Program-made: the position numbers and the translations under genes | Virus record (IMG/VR): IMGVR_UViG_3300021137_000095 | Location: 1-24,446 of that record | Source of the DNA: a virus | Length of the DNA: 24,446 nucleotides | Strand: one strand, 5' to 3' | Notes under the pieces: model-generated | Seen by the model: the letters and a program-made list of their open reading frames with translations, nothing else | Told to the model about the DNA's origin: nothing | Database searches by the model: none | In this document: one piece after another, positions 2,368 through 24,446 of the stretch | Layout: each line of letters opens with the position of its first letter | Numbering within the stretch: position 1 is the stretch's first letter

Positions 2368-3947
2368 GTGACCTTGATGAAGAGCTAGATAACGAATATG
2401 AAGGTAGTGAAGACCTTGATATGGAGTCTGATCTTCCTCCTGAGCCTGTAGAAGAGCTTGATGAGCTCTCTAAAGAATTTGTAAAGGCTCTTGTAGATAA
2501 AATTATGCAGTTTATGGAGATGTTGGTGGGCCATGAGCTCCACAACTACCAGAAACCGCTTGCACGACGCGTTATTGAGTCTGTGATTATCAATGATGGT
2601 GAAGAAGTTACCGCATTAGCCTCTCGTCAGTCCGGTAAGTCAGAAACTATCGCTAACACAGTTGCAACTTTGATGGTAATTCTCCCTCGTCTTGCCGTTA
2701 TCTACCCAGAGTTGCTAGGAAAGTTTGGTGATGGTATTTGGGTGGGTATGTTTGCACCTGTTCAGAATCAGGTTGAAACCCTATACGGCCGCACAGTATC
2801 TCGCCTAACCTCTGAAAGAGCTATGGAGCTCTTTGGTGACCCCGAGATTGACGATATTCCTACAAAAACTCCTGGTGTAACTAAGAATCTAAAGCTTAAG
2901 AAGTCGGGATCGACTCTTATGATGATGACAGCTAACCCACGAGCTAAGATCGAATCTAAGTCGTTTCACTTAATTATCATTGATGAGTGTCAAGAAGCAG
3001 ACGATTTTGTGGTTTCTAAATCTATCGCACCTATGGGTGCTTACTACAACGCTACTATTGTAAAAACCGGAACACCTACAACTCACAAGAACGGCTTCTA
3101 CCGTTCTATTCAGCTAAACAAACGCAGACAAACCGGAGCAAGGGCTAAGCAGAACCATTTTCAATGGGACTGGAAAGACGTATCTAAAGTTCAGCCGAAC
3201 TATGAAAAGTTCATTAGAAAAGAAATGCTTCGCATTGGAGAAGATTCAGATGAGTTCCAACTTTCGTATAACTGTAAGTGGCTCCTCGAAAGAGGAATGT
3301 TTATCACATCCTCAATCATGGAAGACCTTGGAGATACATCTCAAGAAATCGTTAAGAGCTACTTTAAGTCGCCGGTTGTTGTGGGTGTCGATCCCGCTCG
3401 CAAGATGGACTCGACGGTTGTCACGGTGGTTTGGGTAGACTGGGATAGGCCGGATGAGTATGGTTACTATGACCATAGAGTTCTTAACTGGCTTGAGATT
3501 CAGGGAGATGACTGGGAAGAGCAGTACTTCCAGATCCAGCAGTTCCTGTCTAACTATGACGTTCTAGCTATCGGGGTAGATGCCAATGGTGTAGGAGATG
3601 CGGTTGCTCAGCGACTCAAGATCCTTATGCCTAGAGCAGACGTAATCTCGGTTACTTCTAGCCCTACAGAGCAATCTAAGCGCTGGAAGCACCTACAAGC
3701 CCTAGTTCAACGTCAGATGGTCTCCTGGCCAGCTCATGCTAAGACTAGGCGCCTTCGTATCTGGAAGAAGTTCTACCAACAGATGACAGATGCTGAAGTG
3801 CAGTATAAAGGCCCTAATTTCTTAGTGGCTGCCCCAGATGAGGCCCATGCCCATGATGACTTTGTAGACTCATTGGCCCTAGCCTGTTCTCTAACTCAAG
3901 AAATGGTTATGCCTACTATTGAAGTAAGCGCCAATCCTTTCTTTTAA
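2364..3947 (+). CDS. terL: terminase large subunit (ATPase/nuclease)
   Basis: 527 aa, a normal length for TerL. The N-terminal 38 residues are strongly acidic. The ATPase domain has Walker A SRQSGKS at 87-93, Walker B LIIIDE at 203-208 and the coupling motif TGT at 235-237. The C-terminal RNase H-like nuclease domain has its acidic residues in GVDPARK (D343), GVDANG (D406) and HAHDDFVDS (D498/D499). The enzyme docks on the portal, powers DNA translocation into the prohead and cuts the concatemer. The ATG overlaps the previous stop (ATGA). All motifs are intact, so it appears functional. Confidence 0.97.
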   Translation: MSDLDEELDNEYEGSEDLDMESDLPPEPVEELDELSKEFVKALVDKIMQFMEMLVGHELHNYQKPLARRVIESVIINDGEEVTALASRQSGKSETIANTVATLMVILPRLAVIYPELLGKFGDGIWVGMFAPVQNQVETLYGRTVSRLTSERAMELFGDPEIDDIPTKTPGVTKNLKLKKSGSTLMMMTANPRAKIESKSFHLIIIDECQEADDFVVSKSIAPMGAYYNATIVKTGTPTTHKNGFYRSIQLNKRRQTGARAKQNHFQWDWKDVSKVQPNYEKFIRKEMLRIGEDSDEFQLSYNCKWLLERGMFITSSIMEDLGDTSQEIVKSYFKSPVVVGVDPARKMDSTVVTVVWVDWDRPDEYGYYDHRVLNWLEIQGDDWEEQYFQIQQFLSNYDVLAIGVDANGVGDAVAQRLKILMPRADVISVTSSPTEQSKRWKHLQALVQRQMVSWPAHAKTRRLRIWKKFYQQMTDAEVQYKGPNFLVAAPDEAHAHDDFVDSLALACSLTQEMVMPTIEVSANPFF

Positions 3948-13800: not shown

Positions 13801-14612
13801 AAACAGATCAAAAGCAGAACGGCGTATACGTTGTAACTGCTGCCGGTGCCGGAGATGCTAAGTGGGTTTTGACCCGTGCCTCAGACTTTAACGGTGATGG
13901 AAATACCGGTGTAATTAAGCCTGGTGCCTACGTATTCGTAACTAACGGCACCTACTACGCTAACGCCTCATATGTGGTCTCTACCTCTGGAACGTCTACC
14001 AGCCCTAGCGGAGCTATCAAGGTAGGCACAGATATTATTACCTTTGCACAGTACTCTGGCGTACCACTAAATATCTCTACTTTGGGCAACGTAAGCATTG
14101 GTACCTGGCAGGCTACCCCAATTGCGGAACCATATATCTCAACCGCCATTGCCCGTACCGCTAGCCCTACCTTTACAGGTCACGTAACCGTCCCTGCTGT
14201 TCCTACAGCCACTACGGATGCAGCTAGCAAGAAGTATGTGGATGATCTGGTATTGGCAAGCTTGCCTTACCTTCCAGATATTATCCCACTTGATAGCTTG
14301 CGATATGTCTTTGATGGCCGCACTAGCAGGTTTGCCCCTAAGTTCCAAGGTATCCAGCAAACCCTTTACAACCCATATAAGCTAATGATCACCCTAAACG
14401 GTGTAATGCAGACCCCAAGTTACCCTGAACAAACCTGGCTTTCCCTGCTACCATATGACGGATTCATACTAGATAGTGATGGATACATCGCTTTTAGTCA
14501 GGTGCCGCCTGCTGGATCCACTTTTGATGGTAGAGTTATGCTAGGACCTAACATCAATACAATCCATAAGAGCTACCCATTTAACGCAGTAGACGTACTG
14601 CTAGGAATATAA
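10812..14612 (+). CDS. large repetitive tail fibre protein
   Basis: 1266 aa, Thr/Ser/Gly/Asn-rich, with no Cys seen. The N-terminus has a typical fibre attachment-type block (DPTSLGSGHIYFNTSAGRIH), then SGGTMTGALYMG. Residues about 230-560 carry repeated units of about 40 residues built on GLTSVTSTSF...LTGNAT and TLGSTxLTLG. The stock fibre motif QTLTNK occurs near 594 and 677, followed by GTELNYVAGVTSSIQTQLNA. Residues about 925-1080 hold a module with DQTDQKQNGVYVV and WVLTRASDFN. The C-terminal 116 residues (LDSLRYVFDGRTSRFAP, LMITLNGVMQTP) form a distinct end domain seen in other fibre proteins. It is likely a long trimeric adhesive fibre. It starts with an ATGA overlap. Confidence 0.88.
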   Translation: MTRKFYTAVDFTGVPVSNLILQQLSADPTSLGSGHIYFNTSAGRIHYNTGSGGWVALTDANDLNTAVSAAVAALVSTAPSTLNTLAKIDTAINNDASIAATLTSLIGTKLSLSGGTMTGALYMGTNRIKSSFYATDLDDVMNKQAMNDAINGGVGYGIGVAQGYANTAQANAQAYTDTKIAQEVSDRNVNIANAKNEAIGVAETYALGIVNTENSRALAAEALLAPKASPTFTGTVNLPLTTAGYVTTTSNGTIGSVATIPNSGLTYSSLTVGSTSISLGSSSTTLGGLTSVTSTSFIGALTGNATTVTNGVYTTDTGTVTNTMLAGSITNAKLVYSSTTLGSTALTLGATNTTITGLSSVTSTNFVGNITGNVTGNVTGNTSGTHTGNVTLPFATAGYLTNTSTGVVGTVATIPNAGLTYSNITLGTTSTSLGGTSLTLSGLTSVTATSFVGSLTGNATTVTNGVYTTDTGTVTNTMLAGSIDNSKLLNPSLTLGSTPVALGSTTTTLSGFASLTSTTFVGALTGNASTATKLATARAINGVNFDGSTPITIKAFTTNPLTIGTGLSGTSFDGSGAVTIAIDTTTTVDKTTAQTLTNKSMSGSSNTFTNIPNSALTNSSLTVNGTLISLGSSGTVAASTTNALTIGTGLTGTSFTGSSPVTIAIDTSVVTTLTGTQTLTNKTLTSPKINDTTAITTTGTELNYVAGVTSSIQTQLNAKAASSQLSSYQPISADLTAIAAISSGIGNLKRTGTGTWAIDTTAYLPSTSGTVYTSILAGTTTLNLFNTFATTINFGGAVTAMSLGSNDPTSVLTLNAPTIVGNLNYVNLYNTLATTVNFAGAATSLTIGGTPSGAITHNYSTNPTASGVTKTVNLATGNASGGISVVNVGSTTDGSSSSLNVNIPTSYNSTVTVPYPTLSNQAANKQYVDNVAAGIIIKAQVYLGTTGSNLNAVYANGTSDSSGGLGIGATLTAAVNGALTLDGILAPVNSRVIIKDQTDQKQNGVYVVTAAGAGDAKWVLTRASDFNGDGNTGVIKPGAYVFVTNGTYYANASYVVSTSGTSTSPSGAIKVGTDIITFAQYSGVPLNISTLGNVSIGTWQATPIAEPYISTAIARTASPTFTGHVTVPAVPTATTDAASKKYVDDLVLASLPYLPDIIPLDSLRYVFDGRTSRFAPKFQGIQQTLYNPYKLMITLNGVMQTPSYPEQTWLSLLPYDGFILDSDGYIAFSQVPPAGSTFDGRVMLGPNINTIHKSYPFNAVDVLLGI
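11712..11798 (+). repeat. intragenic fibre repeat, copy 1 (29 codons)
   Basis: Encodes residues 301-329 of the fibre (starts LTGNATTVTNG, ends MLAGSI). The amino acids are identical to copy 2 at 12174-12260, but 17 of 29 codons differ, all synonymously by my count. Confidence 0.8.
11925..11948 (+). repeat. tandem 12-bp repeat in the fibre gene
   Basis: GGTAACGTAACC occurs twice head to tail (11925-11936, 11937-11948), coding for repeated GNVT. Being identical at DNA level, it looks like recent slippage, unlike the diverged 29-codon repeats nearby. Confidence 0.75.
12174..12260 (+). repeat. intragenic fibre repeat, copy 2 (29 codons)
   Basis: Encodes residues 455-483 of the fibre, the same peptide as residues 301-329. 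It lies 462 bp (154 codons) downstream of copy 1 within a larger repeated block. Confidence 0.8.
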
Positions 14613-14628
14613 CGAAGGAAGACTAAAC

Positions 14629-17562
14629 ATGGCAAGAAAAGTACTGTTTGAAAACGGATACACCTTTACTCCGTCTACCCGTACCATCACCATCCCAAAG
14701 TACGTTGCCAGAGAGCGTATGGTTCTTATTACCAACGTCTCAACTAACCAGGTAATCTACAACTTCTCTGATCCTAGCCTCGTAGCAACCTCATATACAG
14801 CAACCATTGATGCAAGCAACAATGAGCTGACCACAATTGTTTTGAACTACAACACCACCGCTATGAACGTAGGAGACAAGCTCCAGTTCATCATTGATGA
14901 ATACAACGAGAAGTTCTACCCAGAAGAGTCACTGCTTGACCCAGTTCAGAAGCTTCGTGTCTCTGAACCACAGGCTTTGATGGATACCGACTTTGAATAT
15001 GGAACCCAGCCTACTAAGTGGGAAGTCCTATCTCTTGTCAACAACAAGCCTACCCAGTACTACGATATCCAGAACCCAGTGGCCCAACCTGCTGGTGGAA
15101 CAAACCCTATTGTTTCTCTCACAGGCACCGGTTCTTCCCGTTTAGTTACCGCTGTTACTACAGCCGCACATGGCCTTGTAGTTGGCCAGAAGTTCTTTAT
15201 CCAAGATACTCTAGACCCATATGCTAATGGCTGGTTTATGGTCAAATCTGTTTCTACAACCACAGTAACTAACGATACCTTTACCTACTACGCTCGTAAC
15301 ACAATCCTTACAAACGGTTCAATTTTAGATGCTACAAAGACCTTTATTTATTCAGCATCTGATTATTCTTCTTCCCCAATTCCAGTATCTACTACTGCTG
15401 GTGCGGCATTTACTAATACAGGAAATACTGTATCAGTGACTACAACAAACGCTCACGGTCTTGTTCCTGGAGATTTGATTTACGTATACGGAACAACAGC
15501 TACAACTAACCCACCTAACGGTGCTTGGGAAGTTGCAACAACCCCTACAACAACTACTTTTACATTTACTGTACTAGATACTCCAACAGGTACCATCACT
15601 GCAGTATCTAACTCTTTAACACCACGTGCTGGAACACAATCTATTCACCGTCCATTTGATGGCGGAGTAAAGTTTACAACAGGTGTTTCTGCTCCTGGCT
15701 CACGCGTTATTCGTCAAACACGTAAGTACTTCCGTTACCAGTCGGGTAAAGGTATTCAGTTCTCTACTGGTTCTATGATGAAGCCAGTATTTACTGTGGA
15801 CTCTGTAACCGCTGTTTCTAACGTAGTAACAGTTACAACTCACTACGAGCACTTCTTAGGTGTGGGAGCCCAGGTTGTAGTGTCTGGAGCTACAGACCCT
15901 GCTTATAATGGAACTTGGACAGTAACGTCTGTTCCAACACCTCTTTCATTTACTTATACTTCAACATCAGTACCTGCTACTACACCGGCTCCAGGATGGC
16001 CAATCAGCATTGCGCCAACCTCATGGTACGGCGCTCAAATTCGTTTGGGTATGTTTGATGACCAAAACGGCTTCTTCTTTGAGTTTGATGGTCAAAACTT
16101 TAACGCAGTACGTCGTGACTCTACTAACCAGATCTCAGGCAACATCTCAACTACTTTTGGTTCTCAGACAGTTACAGGAACTAATACAGCCTTCTCTAGC
16201 CAGCTAACACCTGGAGATAAGATTGTTATTCGTGGCATCACCTATTCCGTAGAATCTATCGTTAGTGATACCCAGCTCTACATCTTCCCAGAGTACCGCG
16301 GGCCATCTATTGCCTCCGGTGGAATTATCAGTAAGGTGACAGAGCTTCGTGTACCAAGCAGCTCATTTAACATTGATAAGCTTGATGGCACAGGCCCTTC
16401 CGGAGTTACTCTTAACCTGTCCAGGATGCAGATGTTCTACATTGACTATGCATGGTATGGTGCTGGAGCTATTCGTTTTGGTATTAAAGATGAGCGTGGA
16501 CAGGTTATCTATGTTCATAGAATGACCCACGCTAACGTTACAACTGCTGCCTATATGCGTTCAGGTAACCTACCTGCTCGCTATGAAGCATCTAGCGATA
16601 CTCCTCGCACAACTATTACAGCAACAGTTAACTCAACAGATACCTCAATGTCTGTGGCAAGCACAGCAGCATTTCCATCATCAGGAACTATCTTCCTTGC
16701 TCAATCAGGTGTTTCTAATAAAAACATTGAGTACATTTCATATACAGGAAAAACTGCTACATCGTTTACCGGCTTAACTCGTGGCCTTACTAACGTGGTT
16801 ATTAACCCAACCACAGGTGCAACTGGCGGAGGATCTGCAGCAACAACCTTTACATATGCCGCTACAGCTCCTATCTCAGTTCGCCTGTACTCACGTCAAG
16901 TAGCTACTGGAACCAGCCACTGGGGCTCATCCGTAATCATGGACGGTAAGTTTGATGATGATAAGTCATACATCTTCCAGACTCAGCAGAACACTGCTAT
17001 TAACGTACCACGAAGCACAACTACTCGTTATCCAGCACTTAGCTTGCGTGTAGCGCCTTCTGTAGATAATGGTGTGGTTGGAACCCTTGGTCAGCGTGAG
17101 TTGATTAACCGTATGCAACTTGCTCTATACCAGATGGACGTTCTTGCCTCTATCACCTCTTCTGCTGGTAGCCCAGGTTTGTTCATGATTGAAGTCGTGT
17201 TGAACGGTAAGCTAAGCACATCTACTGGAAACACATGGCAAAATGTTGGTGGATCTAGCCTTTCACAGGTTATGTATCACGCAGCTAACACCACAATCTC
17301 AGGTGGTGAGTCCATCTTCTCATACTTCCTCAACGTACTGGCTAATGACTCTAACGTAGGTTCTAACACCTTGACTCAGGTTAAGACTCTTGGTAACGCT
17401 ATCTACGCTGGCGGAACAACTACAACTGGCTCTACAGACGGAAGTAACATCTATCCAGACGGCCCAGACGTCGTAACCATCTGTATCCGTAACCTCTCAG
17501 GTACTGGTGTAACAGCCAATACAATCAATGCACGTCTATCCTGGCAAGAGGCTCAAGCTTAA
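14629..17562 (+). CDS. large virion structural/appendage protein with several inserted beta modules
   Basis: 977 aa, with GAAGGA before the ATG. The N-terminal 135 residues (KVLFENGYTFTPSTRTIT, ERMVLITNVSTNQVIYNFSD, MDTDFEYGTQPTKWE) resemble structural proteins known from cyanophages and other aquatic myoviruses. The backbone resumes at RPFDGGVKFTTG, RKYFRYQSGKGIQFSTG, YGAQIRLGMFDDQNGFFFE and the C-terminal FDDDKSYIFQT/LINRMQLALYQMDVL region. Inserted Thr-rich modules lie at about 171-218, 267-313 and 397-446 (each like 'AHGL--G----G-----NG-W-V-----FT'), another at 505-558 (TFGSQTVTGTNTAFSS) and one at 660-720 (TSMSVASTAAFPSSGTIFL). Only one Cys is present. It is probably a baseplate or tail-surface protein; the exact place in the virion is unknown. 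Confidence 0.8.
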   Translation: MARKVLFENGYTFTPSTRTITIPKYVARERMVLITNVSTNQVIYNFSDPSLVATSYTATIDASNNELTTIVLNYNTTAMNVGDKLQFIIDEYNEKFYPEESLLDPVQKLRVSEPQALMDTDFEYGTQPTKWEVLSLVNNKPTQYYDIQNPVAQPAGGTNPIVSLTGTGSSRLVTAVTTAAHGLVVGQKFFIQDTLDPYANGWFMVKSVSTTTVTNDTFTYYARNTILTNGSILDATKTFIYSASDYSSSPIPVSTTAGAAFTNTGNTVSVTTTNAHGLVPGDLIYVYGTTATTNPPNGAWEVATTPTTTTFTFTVLDTPTGTITAVSNSLTPRAGTQSIHRPFDGGVKFTTGVSAPGSRVIRQTRKYFRYQSGKGIQFSTGSMMKPVFTVDSVTAVSNVVTVTTHYEHFLGVGAQVVVSGATDPAYNGTWTVTSVPTPLSFTYTSTSVPATTPAPGWPISIAPTSWYGAQIRLGMFDDQNGFFFEFDGQNFNAVRRDSTNQISGNISTTFGSQTVTGTNTAFSSQLTPGDKIVIRGITYSVESIVSDTQLYIFPEYRGPSIASGGIISKVTELRVPSSSFNIDKLDGTGPSGVTLNLSRMQMFYIDYAWYGAGAIRFGIKDERGQVIYVHRMTHANVTTAAYMRSGNLPARYEASSDTPRTTITATVNSTDTSMSVASTAAFPSSGTIFLAQSGVSNKNIEYISYTGKTATSFTGLTRGLTNVVINPTTGATGGGSAATTFTYAATAPISVRLYSRQVATGTSHWGSSVIMDGKFDDDKSYIFQTQQNTAINVPRSTTTRYPALSLRVAPSVDNGVVGTLGQRELINRMQLALYQMDVLASITSSAGSPGLFMIEVVLNGKLSTSTGNTWQNVGGSSLSQVMYHAANTTISGGESIFSYFLNVLANDSNVGSNTLTQVKTLGNAIYAGGTTTTGSTDGSNIYPDGPDVVTICIRNLSGTGVTANTINARLSWQEAQA
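15139..15966 (+). repeat. three diverged beta modules in the structural protein
   Basis: Modules at 15139-15282, 15427-15567 and 15817-15966 (approximate) encode AAHGLVVGQKFF...ANGWFMVKS, NAHGLVPGDLIYVYG...PNGAWEVAT and YEHFLGVGAQVVVSG...YNGTWTVTS. They share order and spacing of the His-Gly-Leu/Phe-Leu turn, the Gly-x(2-3)-V strand, the NG-W turn and a final FTY strand. They are protein-level repeats; DNA identity is low. Confidence 0.65.
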
Positions 17563-17574
17563 GGAGGATTTACC

Positions 17575-20500
17575 GTGGCGCTAAACACGCTCAATCACAA
17601 TTACGGTCAACCCCTTGTAGTTAGCTCACTAAATGTAACGGGTAACGAGGTCATTGACGGTAACACTACCGTCCTTGGCTCCGCTACCCTTGCATCAGCA
17701 TCTATCGGGTCAGTAACTAATGCCCAGATTCAATACCTTACCGGTCTTACAGGTAACGTACAGTCTCAGATCAGTGGGCTTCTTACTCCTGCCCAAGCAT
17801 CGGCTCTGTATTTAACCTTAACTTCTGCAGCATCTACCTACCTAACTCAAACCTCTGCATCTAATACGTATGCTGCTATTGCAGGTACCACTTTTACTGG
17901 CGGCGTAACAATACCAACTCTTACACTTACCAATGCACTTTCAGTGGTTAATGGTGGTACAGGACTTACCGCTACAACTAAAGGCGGCATTTATGTAGGA
18001 ACTGGTACTACTGCTTTTGTAAACGTACCCACTACTACAGACGGCTACATTCTTACTGCAGACTCTACTCAAAGCGCAGGTCTTAAATGGGCTGCTGCTC
18101 CAGTTAGCCTACCTTCTCAAACAGGTAATTCTGGAAAGTATTTAACTACAGATGGAACAACCGCTTCATGGGCTACCGTTACATCAGGTGGATCAGGTAC
18201 CGTAACTAATATTGCTACAAGCACAGGTCTTACAGGTGGACCTATTACCACCACAGGTACTCTAGCAATCGATACAACAGTGGTTCCCCGCCTTGGTGTA
18301 GCAAATACCTTTACTAACGCTATTACCCTGGCCCCATCTTCTACAAGCGTTGCGCCTTTGGTTATCAACGCTCCAAACGGAACAACTGTAAACCCATTAG
18401 ATGTACAGATAAATAGCTCAAGCTATCTAACAGTATCCTCAGCAGGAGCAACCACCCTAGCTGGAGCAGTAACTGCTAACTACAGCTTGGCTCTTAATAG
18501 CGGTCTTTCTACAGGCGTAGTTGCCACAATTAAAGGTGCAGCTTCTCAAACAGGCAACCTAGTTCAATACCAGAACTCTTCAGGCACGGTTCTAGGTGGG
18601 GTTAACGCCGCTGGACAAGGGTACATTGGTACCACACCAGCTACTGGTTCAGCTACTTTTTCTCACACCTCAGCCTCTGCTTCTTCTACAACTGTCGCTA
18701 CATTTACCCTTAATATAGTTTCTACAGCCAACCCGGTTGTGGTTGGTGGGTCAGTCACTACTACAGGTTTTACTCCTAGCTATTTTAATGGAACATTTCC
18801 TGTTAGCTCAACAGGCGGCTCATCAGGAGCTTGGACCTACACCGTATATAACGCAGCAGCAACATTCACTGCTTCAGGTACATCTACTGCTCAAGGAACT
18901 GCTAAAGTAAGCGGAACGCTAACTGTTCAAGGTTCAACAATTTACTCAGTCCCAATTGTTGTTCAAGGCGTTTCTTCATCATCAGCAAACTTACAAGAGT
19001 GGCAAAACTCATCTGGAACACCTTTAGCGACTGTAACCGCTTCAGGAGGCCTAGCTGTTGGCGCCGGACTCATAGTAGTAGGGTCAGCTAACATAGCACA
19101 GCTTAATAGCTATACTTATAGCACCCAGTTAGCAAGCGTTAAGTGGAATGCCGCAGTAAATAACACAAATAATACTGGCGGTATGGTTCTTTCAGGAGGC
19201 TATAACAGCAACGCTGTAACTGTAATTATTAAAGCAACTGGTGGTTCACAAGCTACTACAGGTATAACTACCGCAACAGCCAACGGAACTACATCAGTTA
19301 CTTATACAACGGGTTATTCTGCTCAGTTAGTTGCTGGAGCCGTAGTAACTATTACAGGTATTGTTTCTACAGGTAACCCCAGTGCAACGGCGGGTTCTGG
19401 ATTTAACTTAACCGCCGCTACTGTTACTGCTGCCTCTGCAACGCAGTTTACAGCGACTGCTCCAAGCGCCCTTACAGATACATATACCTCAGGCGGTTAT
19501 GTAACTGCTGTATCGGGTATTGCCGATATAACTCAATGGCAGACTGCTCAGGGAACAACCCTTGCTAAAGTAGATTACCAAGGTAACCTAACCGCTACTA
19601 AGTTTGTTACTACCTCTGGTACATCTAGCCAGTTTGTTAAAGGCGATGGCTCTTTAGACTCCAGCACCTACCTAACTACAGGTACTGCTGCATCTACCTA
19701 TTCGCCTATTGCTGGCTCCTCTTCTCTTACTACTACAGGCACAGTCACTTCAGGTACTTGGTCAGCATCATTTGGTGCTGTATCTGGTGCCAACTTAACC
19801 AGTTTAACTGCTGGTAACTTATCTGGAACTATTCCTTCAGCTGTTTTAGGTAACTCAACTCATTACATAGGTACTACTGCCATAGCACTTAACCGCGCTT
19901 CGGCTTCCCAGACGCTGACAGGTGTAAGCATCGATGGTTCTGCGGGGTCTGTTTCTGCAAGCAGTGTTACAGGATCTACTTTAGCCTCAGGAGTAACTGC
20001 TTCTTCTCTAACCAGCCTTGGAACACTTACTAGCTTAAATGCAGGAGCTACCTTGATTAGCGCCGGCCTTTTGACCGTAGCAAACGGTGGGGACCAGATT
20101 CACCTACACGCCGCAAACAACGGTACATCTGCCCAAACTATTATTCTACGTAATGATGGCTCTAACTATTACAACCTTATCAGTGCAGCTAACACAGCCC
20201 CAGCTAGCGCATCGTGGAATACCCTTCGCCCATTCTATATCAACCTATCTAGCGGATTGCTACAATCTGATAATGGTCAGAACTTTAACGGCGGTACAAC
20301 TTTAGCTTCTGGAAACCTTACCTTATCTAGTGGAAACCTTAACTTTGGGGCAGCTAACCCGACTATTTATGCGTCAAGCTACGTAACATTTAATAATGGA
20401 ATTTATGTAAGCGGTGGGCCATCCCTATACACTGAAGCAGTTATCTCAGCTCGTGGAGGTATACGCAATGACACAGCAAGTTCCCTTACCATAACAGGTG

Positions 20501-20832
20501 GAACCTCTGGTCAAGTTACATTCACTGGTTACATAACAGTATCTTCTGATGAGCGTCTTAAGAAAGACATTGTAAAGATTGATGATGCCCTTACAAAGGT
20601 AGAGGCCCTTAATGGCTATACCTACATTAAGGAAGGACGCCCAGACCGTGAGATGGGCGTTATTGCCCAAGAAGTTATCAAGGTAGCCCCTGAATTGGTT
20701 TCAGAGAACGAAGATGATGGTATGCTATCTGTATCGTATCCAAACATGGTTGCGCTCCTTATTGAAGCAGTTAAAGAGCAGTCTACAAAGATTGCCGCTC
20801 TTGAGGAGCAAGTAAAAGAACTTAAGGGATAA
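17575..20832 (+). CDS. tail fibre/spike with C-terminal S74 intramolecular chaperone domain
   Basis: 1085 aa from GTG 17575, with AAGGAGG 8 nt upstream overlapping the previous stop. The body is Thr/Ser/Ala/Gly-rich with common fibre motifs (TNAQIQYLTGLTGNVQSQIS, VVNGGTGLTA, SSQFVKGDGSLDSSTYL). Three copies of a 'NL-QWQ-SSGT-LA-V---G' repeat occur near 327, 472 and 651; two beta modules are inserted at about 362-442 and 565-647. Residues 991-1085 are the S74 chaperone domain: SDERLKKDI with S991 and K996 as the expected Ser/Lys dyad, MGVIAQEV, SVSYPNMVALLIEAV and a final coiled coil (STKIAALEEQVKELK). In known relatives this domain trimerises the fibre and cuts itself off just before the Ser. 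No Cys seen. Confidence 0.92.
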   Translation: MALNTLNHNYGQPLVVSSLNVTGNEVIDGNTTVLGSATLASASIGSVTNAQIQYLTGLTGNVQSQISGLLTPAQASALYLTLTSAASTYLTQTSASNTYAAIAGTTFTGGVTIPTLTLTNALSVVNGGTGLTATTKGGIYVGTGTTAFVNVPTTTDGYILTADSTQSAGLKWAAAPVSLPSQTGNSGKYLTTDGTTASWATVTSGGSGTVTNIATSTGLTGGPITTTGTLAIDTTVVPRLGVANTFTNAITLAPSSTSVAPLVINAPNGTTVNPLDVQINSSSYLTVSSAGATTLAGAVTANYSLALNSGLSTGVVATIKGAASQTGNLVQYQNSSGTVLGGVNAAGQGYIGTTPATGSATFSHTSASASSTTVATFTLNIVSTANPVVVGGSVTTTGFTPSYFNGTFPVSSTGGSSGAWTYTVYNAAATFTASGTSTAQGTAKVSGTLTVQGSTIYSVPIVVQGVSSSSANLQEWQNSSGTPLATVTASGGLAVGAGLIVVGSANIAQLNSYTYSTQLASVKWNAAVNNTNNTGGMVLSGGYNSNAVTVIIKATGGSQATTGITTATANGTTSVTYTTGYSAQLVAGAVVTITGIVSTGNPSATAGSGFNLTAATVTAASATQFTATAPSALTDTYTSGGYVTAVSGIADITQWQTAQGTTLAKVDYQGNLTATKFVTTSGTSSQFVKGDGSLDSSTYLTTGTAASTYSPIAGSSSLTTTGTVTSGTWSASFGAVSGANLTSLTAGNLSGTIPSAVLGNSTHYIGTTAIALNRASASQTLTGVSIDGSAGSVSASSVTGSTLASGVTASSLTSLGTLTSLNAGATLISAGLLTVANGGDQIHLHAANNGTSAQTIILRNDGSNYYNLISAANTAPASASWNTLRPFYINLSSGLLQSDNGQNFNGGTTLASGNLTLSSGNLNFGAANPTIYASSYVTFNNGIYVSGGPSLYTEAVISARGGIRNDTASSLTITGGTSGQVTFTGYITVSSDERLKKDIVKIDDALTKVEALNGYTYIKEGRPDREMGVIAQEVIKVAPELVSENEDDGMLSVSYPNMVALLIEAVKEQSTKIAALEEQVKELKG
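18658..18900 (+). repeat. inserted beta module, S74 fibre copy 1
   Basis: Codes for residues about 362-442, with VATFTLNIV, NPVVVGGSVTTTGFTPSYFNG and AWTYTVYN. It lies between two fibre repeats of the QWQNSSGT type. Boundaries are approximate. Confidence 0.5.
19267..19515 (+). repeat. inserted beta module, S74 fibre copy 2
   Basis: Codes for residues about 565-647 (TSVTYTTGYSAQLVAGAVV, TITGIVSTGNP, FNLTAATVTAASATQFTAT). It appears to interrupt the third QWQ-type fibre repeat between IIKATGGSQATT and ADITQWQTAQGTTLAKV. Boundaries are approximate. Confidence 0.5.
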
Positions 20833-20835
20833 CAC

Positions 20836-21267
20836 ATGACTACTACTATTGACGGTACAAATATTACCTTTGTTGACGGCTCTGCCTTTAACGGAGCTAA
20901 CACGGCATCGCAGCTGGTTCCAGATACTAATAGCTCTGAAACAGCCACCACCTATAACATAGGGTATTTAGCCTTTGCTAATACTGTGTTCTCTGCTGGT
21001 GGAGGATTTATTGCGTCAGGCGCTTGGGCATTTGGATTAAACAAATCTTTAGGGGCATTTTCAGTTTCCGCTAGCTCAGGAACTATGTATCCATATGTAA
21101 ACAGTACTCAAGCAGCTAACGCCTACACTGGGTCTCAAAACTTTTATATGTTTAACGCTCAAGGCACTGGACCATGTGCCGGTACTTGGAAATATAGGGG
21201 GCAAGCTTTAAACACAGGTCTCTATCAATATTATGGTAACTTTTTACTTTTGGAGAGGGTAGCATGA
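20836..21267 (+). CDS. small tail-tip/fibre protein, paralogue 1 of 3
   Basis: 143 aa. The start block is TTTIDGTNITFVDGSAFNG. Next comes TNSSETATTYNIGYLAFANT (31-50), matching the third paralogue, then a variable aromatic/Gly-rich centre, and an end block GTWKYRG (116-122) ... LLLERVA. A GTW(R)xxG followed by a terminal RVA/RIA is typical of C-termini of phage fibre or tip proteins. It is likely a virion surface protein, perhaps receptor-binding. AAGGG lies 7 nt before the ATG, directly after the S74 fibre. The stop overlaps the next ATG (ATGA). Only one Cys (114). Confidence 0.7.
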   Translation: MTTTIDGTNITFVDGSAFNGANTASQLVPDTNSSETATTYNIGYLAFANTVFSAGGGFIASGAWAFGLNKSLGAFSVSASSGTMYPYVNSTQAANAYTGSQNFYMFNAQGTGPCAGTWKYRGQALNTGLYQYYGNFLLLERVA

Positions 21268-21707
21268 CTGTAACTATTACTGGTACAACTGTAACTACTT
21301 CTTCTGGAAATGCGTACACCTCTAGACCTAACTATATTACTGTAGGTGGTTATTGGTGGTTGGGGTATGATGTAGGGTCATATGTTATGACTATGCAGGT
21401 AAACCCTAAAACCCCACAATCATATATTAACGATACAGTAAACGTAAACGGTACTGCTGGGTACCTTATTCCTTGGCCTACATGGTACTGGCCATATACA
21501 AATGGAACTTACGGCACATATGTAAGCGCACCTAATACAACAACTGTAACTGGATTTATTACCTCGGTTTCCTCTGTATCTAACTTTGGACCTACTAATA
21601 CCAACTACTATGCTATGCCGGGTACCTGGAGAGCCTCAGGTTGGTGCGGTGATGGGGAGTATATTGACCAAGAATACTTCTATCAAGTATTTAGGAGGGT
21701 CGCATGA
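21264..21707 (+). CDS. small tail-tip/fibre protein, paralogue 2 of 3
   Basis: 147 aa, the most divergent of the three. It shares the MT-TI opening (MTVTITGTTVTTSSGNAY) and the end block GTWRASG (120-126) ... VFRRVA, but the centre is different and notably Trp/Tyr-rich (GGYWWLGYD, PWPTWYWPYTNGTYGTY). Such aromatic clusters are common at carbohydrate-binding surfaces, so glycan binding is possible; this is inference. Its ribosome site (GGAGAGGG) lies inside the end of paralogue 1, and it has 4-nt ATGA overlaps on both sides, so the three genes are translationally coupled. Confidence 0.7.
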   Translation: MTVTITGTTVTTSSGNAYTSRPNYITVGGYWWLGYDVGSYVMTMQVNPKTPQSYINDTVNVNGTAGYLIPWPTWYWPYTNGTYGTYVSAPNTTTVTGFITSVSSVSNFGPTNTNYYAMPGTWRASGWCGDGEYIDQEYFYQVFRRVA

Positions 21708-22111
21708 CCACCACTATTGACGCAAACTATATCTATTACCAAGATGGCACTACCCAGACTAACGCTAGATACAAAAGTATTGATACTAATACCTCCCCAA
21801 GCGCCACTAATTATGCAATAGGAACCTACCTATTATGTGATACCAGAACCTATAACGGAAAAACTAACCCGCTTCCGTTAGACGGTTGGAGCCGTTATTA
21901 CTCAGGACCTAATTTAATTAGTAGCCCAAGCTGGTCTGGAATAACAACCAATGGTGGGGTTTACTCCACTATAACAGATGGACTGGGCGTACAAGCGACC
22001 TACACTCAACCGTGTATAATGGATGGTGGCTACGGCGGCACAACTTTATCAGGCACCTGGGTATCAAGGGGATCCTCCCCAACCCAAGCTTTTGTAGTAA
22101 GAATCGCATAG
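21704..22111 (+). CDS. small tail-tip/fibre protein, paralogue 3 of 3
   Basis: 135 aa. It opens TTTIDANYIYYQDGTTQTN, continues DTNTSPSATNYAIGTYLLCDT (aligned with paralogue 1), and ends GTWVSRGSSPTQAFVVRIA. The centre (about 50-110) is Gly/Tyr/Ser-rich and unlike the other two. Two Cys (45, 104). AGGAGGG lies near the end of paralogue 2. It is followed after 9 nt by the assembly-chaperone-like gene, which suggests that these proteins or the nearby fibres need a folding helper. Confidence 0.7.
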   Translation: MTTTIDANYIYYQDGTTQTNARYKSIDTNTSPSATNYAIGTYLLCDTRTYNGKTNPLPLDGWSRYYSGPNLISSPSWSGITTNGGVYSTITDGLGVQATYTQPCIMDGGYGGTTLSGTWVSRGSSPTQAFVVRIA

Positions 22112-22631: not shown

Positions 22632-23561
22632 GTGGCAACTAACCCAAATGGATACCCTAACCAGGTACGAAGCTATACTGCTGAGGTTGATCTTGTAAGC
22701 ACAGTAGCTGCTGACAACATTAACTCTTTGCAGCAAGAAATTGTGGCTCTTGAGACTGCTTTGGGTACAGCCCTAACTACCAATCCCCTTACCTCTACCT
22801 TTTCAGGTACGTGGTCTACAGCCACAACTAACTGGAACACCATTGGTGATAGGCTTCTTAATATTGAAGCTGGCCTAGTTAACGGTGTATCTAATGCTCC
22901 GTATGTTCTTAAGACTGGTGGAAGCACTGTTACCTCTGCCAGCAACGTCGGCTTTACCCTCAGAATGGGCGCCGGATCTCTTAACCTTATGGAGACATAC
23001 TCTGCATCAAATAGCTTAGGCTTTAACATTGACCAGACAGGTACTCCTAAAGTAGGAACTAACAATGTTCTTTATGTAAACAGCGCAGATTACGCCAGCT
23101 TAGTGGGGAGTATTTCTTCTGCTTCAAGCACAGGCGGTGCTGCTATCCCTAAGTCTGCCTTTACAGCCGCTTATCAACTTCTTTATTCTACTGGTGCAGG
23201 AACGTACACTACGCTATCTATAGGAACTTCTGGACAGTACCTTACAATTGGCGCAAGTGCTCCTCAATGGACTACCCTTCCAAACTATCTTCTTGCTAGC
23301 ACCCTTACTACAAACGGCGATCTTCTTTACTACAACAGTGGAAATACCCGCCTTCCTATTGGAAGCTCTGGTCAAGTCCTTACTGTTGTAAGTGGACTTC
23401 CTGCTTGGCAAACTCCTTCATCAGCCTTCGTTTCTACAACAAACGGTACAGTCTCCACAGCCTCTACCTCATCAGGTGTTGTTCGTAATATTTGGACTTC
23501 TACCTCATCTCCAACTTCAGGTCAAGGGGCAGATGGGGATGTCTGGCTGGTTTACGTATAA
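22632..23561 (+). CDS. tail fibre protein
   Basis: 309 aa from GTG 22632, with AAGGAGATATAA just upstream. The N-terminal segment (TAEVDLVSTVAADNINSLQQ, then EIVALETALGT) is a helical fibre-base motif seen widely in phages. The middle is Ser/Thr/Gly-rich. Motifs ASTLTTNGDLLYYNSGNT and LPIGSSGQVLTVVSGLPAW (about 238-258) are stock fibre elements, and the protein ends ADGDVWLVYV, a common C-terminal closing strand. No Cys. Probably a short fibre or fibre segment. The stop overlaps the next ATG by one base (TAATG), so it is coupled to the Cys-rich adhesin and may be its shaft. Confidence 0.8.
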   Translation: MATNPNGYPNQVRSYTAEVDLVSTVAADNINSLQQEIVALETALGTALTTNPLTSTFSGTWSTATTNWNTIGDRLLNIEAGLVNGVSNAPYVLKTGGSTVTSASNVGFTLRMGAGSLNLMETYSASNSLGFNIDQTGTPKVGTNNVLYVNSADYASLVGSISSASSTGGAAIPKSAFTAAYQLLYSTGAGTYTTLSIGTSGQYLTIGASAPQWTTLPNYLLASTLTTNGDLLYYNSGNTRLPIGSSGQVLTVVSGLPAWQTPSSAFVSTTNGTVSTASTSSGVVRNIWTSTSSPTSGQGADGDVWLVYV

Positions 23562-24446
23562 TGGCTGGGCAAATTAAAGTAAGCGGTGCTTGGCATACTG
23601 CAGGTGCTGCTCTAGTCAAAGTGTCAGGATCTTGGCGCTCTGTAACCTCTGGTTGGGTTAATATTGCCGGTACCTGGAGACAGTGGTTTATTGGACTAGT
23701 TACAGATACCTTTACTCGCACTACTTCTGGTAGTTTAGGCACTGCTGACACAGGTCAATCTTGGGTAGCTAGGTTTGGTGTCTGGGCTGCTAACGGTGCA
23801 GCAGCAGCTTCCTCTAATGCGACCTCTTCATTAAATGCTGGAGCTTTAGCAGTAGTTGATATAGGTGATGCTAATGCCGTTGTTTACCTAGGAAACTCTA
23901 ATGCTTCTGGGGTTACTCCTGGAACAGGTATTGCTTTTTGGTCTACTGCCTCTGGTTCTTGGTGGGGCGCTATTTCTTATAGTGATACCTCAACCTCTAC
24001 TTATTCTTGTAACTGTAGCAACTATTGTGCTTCTTGTATTACCTGTGCATCCGTAACTACTACATCTACATATAACGCAGCATCGACTCCCGGTACAACC
24101 ACATATACATATGCTGGAAGCGCTACAGCTGTATCTGCCACAGTATCAACCCGTTACTGTACTTCAGCTGACGTTTCTAATCTAAGCAACCCATGTACTT
24201 CTACAGGCACCTGTAATGCGCAGGCTACAGGTGCGGTTTGTAGCTATACTTGTGGCAATGGCGGTGTAGGAAGCGGTGGAGGTACATGCTATGTGTGCTC
24301 TGGTGGAACAGTCAACGGACCTACACCTAGTGGTTCAGGATCTATTTCCTCTTGCTATACAGTGGGTACATCCGCCACTACCTATAGTTGTAATTATGGT
24401 GATGGTACCCCCGACGCTAACCACGTCTGTACCCACAGCGCTACCA
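23561..24446 (+). CDS. Cys-rich tail adhesin (3' partial)
   Basis: Open from ATG 23561 to the window end (295 codons, no stop). The N-terminus has three repeats spaced exactly 14 residues: VSGAW (7-11), VSGSW (21-25), IAGTW (35-39), a repeat style seen in tail proteins. Residues about 49-140 (DTFTRTTSGSLGTADTGQSW, AVVYLGNSN, IAFWSTASGSWWGAISY) look like a lectin/LamG-like sandwich. From residue 150 the protein becomes Cys-rich: 15 Cys by 290, starting with C150, C152, C156, C159, C162 (CNCSNYCASCITC), then C200, C212, C218, C227, C231, C243, C246, C265, C277, C290. It is probably a cell-binding appendage stabilised by disulfides or metal. The full length is unknown. Confidence 0.75.
   Translation, partial: MAGQIKVSGAWHTAGAALVKVSGSWRSVTSGWVNIAGTWRQWFIGLVTDTFTRTTSGSLGTADTGQSWVARFGVWAANGAAAASSNATSSLNAGALAVVDIGDANAVVYLGNSNASGVTPGTGIAFWSTASGSWWGAISYSDTSTSTYSCNCSNYCASCITCASVTTTSTYNAASTPGTTTYTYAGSATAVSATVSTRYCTSADVSNLSNPCTSTGTCNAQATGAVCSYTCGNGGVGSGGGTCYVCSGGTVNGPTPSGSGSISSCYTVGTSATTYSCNYGDGTPDANHVCTHSAT

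Follow-up and report, generated by a model that had tools for sequence, protein, structure and literature searches.

Exchange of a tail fibre together with its chaperone is already known in phages: the host recognition modules of Alteromonas phages A5 and V22 contain a fibre and a cognate chaperone that are common to distant phages (PMC10579305). In these modules one fibre is accompanied by a DUF4376 chaperone, whereas the locus considered here has three small tip genes (g1, g2 and g3), which we refer to as the trio, followed by one chaperone gene. The Pam3 gp24-gp25 pair (PDB 7YPX, PMC9608196) resembles the trio locus in that its fibre is small and stands alone and its chaperone has two domains; in that structure gp25 attaches to the fibre through its variable N-terminal domain and forms trimers through its conserved C-terminal domain. 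Pam3 gp24 differs from the trio in being one fibre, with a glycine-rich tip and a helical shaft, and no sequence match between the two was found. Adhesins of the S16/Pam3 type carry glycine-rich tip motifs such as GGGGxGG (PMC9608196), and Gly-rich runs of this kind (found in gp38 and gp24) are absent from g1-g3.

Further parallels are found among fibres that end in what we refer to as a GTW knob, in Pseudomonas phages (Pa193 gp47, KIL1, 16Q and Itty13), Aquamicrobium phage P14 and Vibrio phage VPs20. Like the trio, these knobs start with [IV]G[TSH]Y, carry GTW-x-x-x-G and R[IV][SAT] at or beside the extreme C-terminus, and are followed by a chaperone with the same N-terminal domain; unlike the trio, in which the three proteins are separate and small, the knob is the end of one long fibre. 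Protein 53 of Lentibacter phage ICBM2 (132 aa), encoded directly before chaperone 52, shares with the trio a stand-alone tip composed of an N-terminal block and a GTW knob, as well as the swapping of the knob and the chaperone N-terminal part as a unit (relative to ICBM1), but is present in a single copy where the trio has three genes. The non-subscription literature that was searched contained no description of a tandem knob trio, nor of a set of paralogous stand-alone knobs fixed at three.

Organization and conservation of the three-gene locus

The window, by which we mean the whole 24.4 kb virus record analysed, encodes terminase, portal and major head proteins upstream of the trio locus (Table 1). 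The S74 fibre gene and g1 are separated by 3 bases, and g3 and the chaperone gene by 9. Both internal junctions read gcATGAc, giving 4-base overlaps. Among the 12 genomes compared in detail, all retain the 4-base overlap of g2 and g3 and an AGGAG-type sequence at that junction; the g1-g2 overlap is 4 bases in the window and in the related contig L002, and 1 base in the other 10. A different spacing upstream was observed in L018, which has 112 additional bases between the S74 fibre gene and g1 (14567-14678), against 2-3 bases in the others compared; this insert is possibly the scar of an exchange.

Table 1 Coordinates of the trio locus and its flanking genes in the window.
Feature	Position	Strand	Basis
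S74 tail fibre gene	17575..20832	+	Peptidase_S74 56.1 bits (cut-off 22); tail fibre PHROGs
g1, 143 aa; predicted knob-like stand-alone tip protein, variable centre, GTW at 21181	20836..21267	+	ORF; 14 other contigs; knob profile match
g1/g2 junction: Shine-Dalgarno-like GGAGAGG within ERVA codons and ATGA overlap	21252..21267	+	Sequence
g2, 147 aa; predicted knob-like stand-alone tip protein, conserved Trp/Tyr-rich centre, GTW at 21621	21264..21707	+	ORF; relation to g1 96% (hhalign); centre 74% identical (12 genomes)
g2/g3 junction: Shine-Dalgarno AGGAGGG within RRVA codons and ATGA overlap	21692..21707	+	Sequence
g3, 135 aa; predicted knob-like stand-alone tip protein, variable centre, GTW at 22052	21704..22111	+	ORF; relation to g1 97% (hhalign); knob profile match
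Putative fibre-assembly chaperone, 156 aa	22121..22591	+	PF16778 (Phage_tail_APC) 44.7 bits (curated cut-off 26.6); isolate N-domain profile; co-inherited with trio

The three proteins begin with MTTTIDGTNITFVDG (g1), MTVTITGTTVTTSSG (g2) and MTTTIDANYIYYQDG (g3) and end in ERVA, RRVA and VRIA, respectively; g2 contains 7 Trp and 16 Tyr in its 147 residues. All three, and nearly all of their relatives, carry the C-terminal GTW-x-x-x-G ... R[IV][SA] motif, the departures being GVW in some g2 proteins, GSW in some g1 proteins and an RTA end in g3 of the related contig L031. Compared with shuffled sequences, the N-terminal 50 residues of g1 are related to those of g3 (z 10.2) and of g2 (z 4.8), and the single sequences of g2 and g3 show no significant relation over this region. 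Profiles built from relatives and compared with hhalign related g1 to g3 with a probability of 97% (N-terminal 50 residues) and to g2 with one of 96% (whole length); the probability for g2-g3 was 46%. These scores indicate that the three proteins are paralogues with diverged centres, rather than unrelated centres placed between fixed ends. The last codons of g1 and g2 double as the Shine-Dalgarno sequence of the next gene (e.g., TTT AGG AGG GTC GCA TGA), such that part of the shared end block may be a translation signal; g3, with a Shine-Dalgarno sequence located after its stop codon, still retains the R[VI]A end, and isolate knobs keep R[VI][AS] without this constraint.

Relatives of the trio were gathered by means of a neighbouring 977-aa virion protein, the chaperone, and profiles of g2 and g3. 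This yielded 14 other aquatic phage contigs, one of them from a phage ~99% identical to that of the window, and separate scans with the g2 and g3 profiles returned an identical set of 14. In each of these contigs g1, g2 and g3 occur once apiece and in a fixed order, each position forming its own orthologous group; in contigs long enough to show the flanks, an S74 fibre gene precedes the trio and the chaperone gene follows it. No trio homologues were recovered by direct search of the phage collection, apart from one weak match to a Klebsiella fibre, and none were found in bacterial or archaeal genomes; comparison with Pfam and PHROGs gave no reliable match, leaving the trio without a database family. 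A degenerate DNA pattern spanning the ATGA junction found just two phages, the remaining matches being due to chance.

Mean amino acid identity across 12 genomes was calculated for residues 1-20, residues 21-50, the centre, and the region from GTW to the end. The values in this order were 72, 49, 33 and 64% for g1, 58, 66, 74 and 83% for g2, and 66, 63, 45 and 82% for g3. The centre is therefore the fastest-evolving part of g1 and of g3, whereas in g2 the least conserved part is residues 1-20. Mean pN was below pS in every region of all three genes, indicating that coding constraint is kept; as no region had pN above pS, positive selection is without support.

An earlier note on this DNA had described three coupled genes with a common opening block and a GTW end, lying between an S74 fibre and a chaperone-like gene. 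The open reading frames, the ATGA overlaps, the z-scores and the hhalign probabilities bear out the first part, and the flanks were correctly named (S74 fibre at 56 bits before the trio, Phage_tail_APC chaperone at 44.7 bits after). Its phrase "unrelated centres" would be better worded as "centres diverged beyond recognition", since g1 and g2 align end to end. Variable centres between fixed ends, as it proposed, are found in g1 (33% against 72 and 64%) and g3 (45% against 66 and 82%) but not in g2. The copy number, which it had thought might differ between related phages, does not vary, with exactly three genes in 14/14 other contigs.

The surroundings of the locus differ among the trio phages. 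Two more fibre-like genes lie 3' of the chaperone in the window (22632-23561, 309 aa, and about 23559-24446), the second of which begins MAGQIKVSGAW and runs off the window end; counterparts are present in L018 and L023, but in L002 and L031 the chaperone gene is not immediately followed by them. In a sub-group of trio phages, glycosyltransferase-like genes of about 250-280 aa are located directly 3' of the chaperone (L021 12740-13573, L023 16449-18052, L024 6319-7074, L101 3613-5209), two of them in tandem in L023 and L101. L002 encodes, further downstream, a protein that is tail-sheath-like judged by its translation, which suggests a phage with a contractile tail.

Relation to the knobs and chaperones of isolated phages

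The chaperone provided a lead to the nature of the trio, as a number of related chaperones in isolated phages are encoded after a fibre or small protein with the C-terminal pattern [IV]G[TSQ]Y ... GTWR-x-[ML]-G ... R[IV]S or a near variant of it. The trio resembles the C-terminal knob of many isolated-phage tail fibres, [IV]G[TSH]Y ... GTW-x-x-x-G ... R[IV][SA]. We constructed a profile from 11 fibre knobs of isolated phages and one single-cell virus, none of them from the trio lineage, and compared it with 5386 ORFs. The top 36 places were all occupied by g1 or g3 genes (best E 2.6e-4), although the match was not significant once VPs20 and phiM9, the two closest knobs, were left out of the profile. 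The profile does not detect g2, which is tied to the knobs via g1 alone, and hhalign comparison of the isolate knobs with g1 and g3 gave 40%. Most isolate knobs carry an AGSxLxY motif in their centre, which the trio alignment lacks; VPs20 and phiM9 lack it as well, so that it is not universal. Given the absence of this motif, we class the trio proteins as working like GTW knobs, probably as a divergent branch rather than as secure members. We regard the sequence link to the isolate knobs as moderate.

AlphaFold produced poor models of g2 (11 sequences, pLDDT 35.6) and g1 (23 sequences, pLDDT 52.8), and Foldseek searches of BFVD and PDB returned no significant fold match for the trio; SIO1 gp6, a knob protein found independently, ranked second in the fold search at a non-significant E of 2.7. 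The knob family itself has a sequence match in PDB, to residues 881-961 of Pa193 gp47 (E 1.9e-10), but the deposited structure was built for residues 1-340 alone and the knob is unresolved (PMC11042391).

The chaperone of the window consists of an N-terminal domain of the putative knob-recognising kind (~residues 1-78) and a Phage_tail_APC C-terminal domain (residues 82-142). Among the isolated phages examined, the presence of the knob is predictive of this N-terminal domain, and vice versa. The gene after a knob-ended fibre encodes the N-terminal domain in P14, VPs20, ICBM2, ct7L, SIO1, 16Q, Itty13, NoPa, AG-345 and Pa193, the match being weak in phiM9, whereas chaperones that keep the C-terminal part alone come after knobless fibres (CRP-114, W2, pVa-21, ICBM1, ICBM2_51 and ICBM2_49, the latter two following the other two fibres of ICBM2). 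A profile of the isolate N-terminal domain identified all trio-associated chaperones among the 5386 ORFs (E 3e-5 to 5e-10), with no other ORF below E 3.7, and the N-terminal domain profile of the trio lineage weakly matches ICBM2, ct7L, NoPa and one phiM9 chaperone. Residues 1-80 of the window chaperone, used as a query, retrieved Pseudomonas phages with weak scores (E 0.05-0.9); in 5/5 of these matches that were checked the preceding fibre ends in a GTW knob, and their chaperones are without a Phage_tail_APC-like end.

Two further observations were made in the isolates. In Pa193 (L141, MK837009) an unannotated ORF directly after gp47 (about 3213-3640) encodes a chaperone N-terminal domain of the knob type, which is annotated in its relative R26 (L147 1441-1869). 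The Sinorhizobium phage phiM9 (L127 3244-4243) has tandem paralogous chaperone-like genes, phiM9_137 and phiM9_138, after a single fibre with a knob end, an arrangement opposite to that of the trio, where three knob-like proteins share one chaperone.

Block replacement of the trio and the chaperone N-terminal part

Comparison of three related contigs revealed that the trio and most of the chaperone gene are replaced as one block. Between L002 and L031, amino acid identity is 97% in the S74 fibre ends but 39, 55 and 41% in g1, g2 and g3, respectively, and 52% in the N-terminal part of the chaperone. Conversely, L031 and L018 share 87, 86 and 75% amino acid identity in g1, g2 and g3 and 92% in the chaperone N-terminal part, against 54% in the S74 end and 61% in the chaperone C-terminal part. 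At the DNA level, identity between L002 and L031 is 95-100% over most of the fibre gene, with a few stretches at 82-94%; it drops at the start of g1 to about 34-74%, stays there across the trio and most of the chaperone gene, and returns to 94-100% from the final chaperone codons onward. With the edges mapped at base level, the left edge of divergence coincides with the conserved MTTTIDGTN coding block.

The same unit emerged from identity matrices of 11 genomes. Those of g1, g2, g3 and the chaperone N-terminal part are correlated (Mantel r 0.74-0.87), and the matrix of the S74 end correlates poorly with them (r 0.13-0.25), indicating that the cassette comprises the trio and the chaperone N-terminal part and that the S74 fibre gene is a flank outside the swapped unit. 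ICBM1 and ICBM2, Lentibacter phages of the same host strain, show the same kind of exchange with a single-copy stand-alone knob: the tips are 74% identical over the N-terminal 46 residues and 25% over the rest, and the chaperones 21% in the N-terminal part and 70% in the C-terminal part.

These results also bear on what the earlier note had proposed about function. Its cassette exists, but the exchanged unit is the whole trio with most of the chaperone rather than the centres alone. The tip-like nature of the proteins is supported, in line with their GTW...R[VI]A ends and with the moderate knob profile match of g1 and g3, and so is their dependence on a chaperone, in line with the N-terminal domain of the knob-following kind and its co-variation with the trio; both assignments are predictions.

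Proposed function and alternative explanations

The explanation we favour, with a probability of roughly 70%, is that the trio represents three stand-alone fibre-tip knobs that are folded by one common chaperone and exchanged as a cassette. The g1, g2 and g3 proteins would be three versions of the distal receptor-binding knob that elsewhere forms the C-terminal end of one long fibre, and would presumably be present in the virion as trimers. Each would combine a short N-terminal strand block, for trimer register or docking, with a knob that extends over about 95-110 aa, from Y-x-[IV]-G-x-[YL] to the GTW...R[VI]A C-terminus; the centres of g1 and g3 would carry variable, probably receptor-contacting loops, that of g2 being conserved. 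The three genes are translationally coupled, and the downstream chaperone would fold all three products, its N-terminal domain recognising the knob and its C-terminal part being generic. Such recognition is suggested by co-inheritance and by analogy with the Pam3 gp24-gp25 structure, the domain roles of which would explain the joint exchange of knob and N-terminal domain. In the swapping between phages, one crossover falls within the chaperone gene and the other at the start of g1 or shortly upstream of it, with the S74 fibre and the downstream genes staying in place.

One may postulate that the three proteins instead form an obligate heteromeric tip, either a mixed trimer or a layered tip of fixed stoichiometry, for which one chaperone serves and only matched sets assemble; in one version, g2 is a conserved scaffold and g1 and g3 are variable receptor-binding subunits. 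The invariable presence of exactly one copy of each gene, coupled translation, the exchange of a matched set as a block, the N- and C-terminal blocks common to all three proteins and the conserved g2 centre as opposed to the variable centres of g1 and g3 would all be expected, but each of these points also fits three separate homotrimers that are co-inherited by linkage. Concerted evolution of the N-terminal blocks within genomes is at best slight (p 0.03 for g1-g3, 0.20 for g1-g2 and 0.09 for g2-g3), and we consider the heteromer unlikely.

Somewhat less probable still is a scenario in which the trio proteins are other small parts of the tail or baseplate, with the chaperone acting on the S74 fibre or on the products of the fibre genes downstream. 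The trio yielded no confident fold, its knob match is moderate, and the chaperone gene lies amid several fibre genes; against this, the chaperone N-terminal part tracks the trio (r 0.74-0.83) rather than the S74 end (0.13), the same type of N-terminal domain is found after GTW knobs in isolates, and the S74 fibre carries an intramolecular chaperone of its own at the C-terminus. The further suggestion of the earlier note, that additional knob copies are spare parts for recombination into the main fibre, is very improbable: paralogy of the proteins and recombination in the region would fit it, but copy number and order are invariant, the three positions constitute three distinct orthologous groups, no fibre of the lineage was found to end in a trio-type knob, and all three genes keep coding constraint and translation signals. 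We discarded this idea, together with that of copy-number variation, on the basis of the invariant trio in all contigs.

Which bacteria a phage infects is determined by the tips of its tail fibres, and block exchange of the trio and part of the chaperone would let a virus change its whole host grip in one step. An apparent set of three tip proteins with one chaperone, swapped without touching the main fibre, represents a clear host-range unit in uncultured aquatic phages. The pairing seen in isolates also offers a usable rule, in that the N-terminal domain of a chaperone tells the kind of knob that precedes it, even where the knob has diverged past recognition. Finally, the trio makes it testable whether phages build mixed tips from paralogous knobs.
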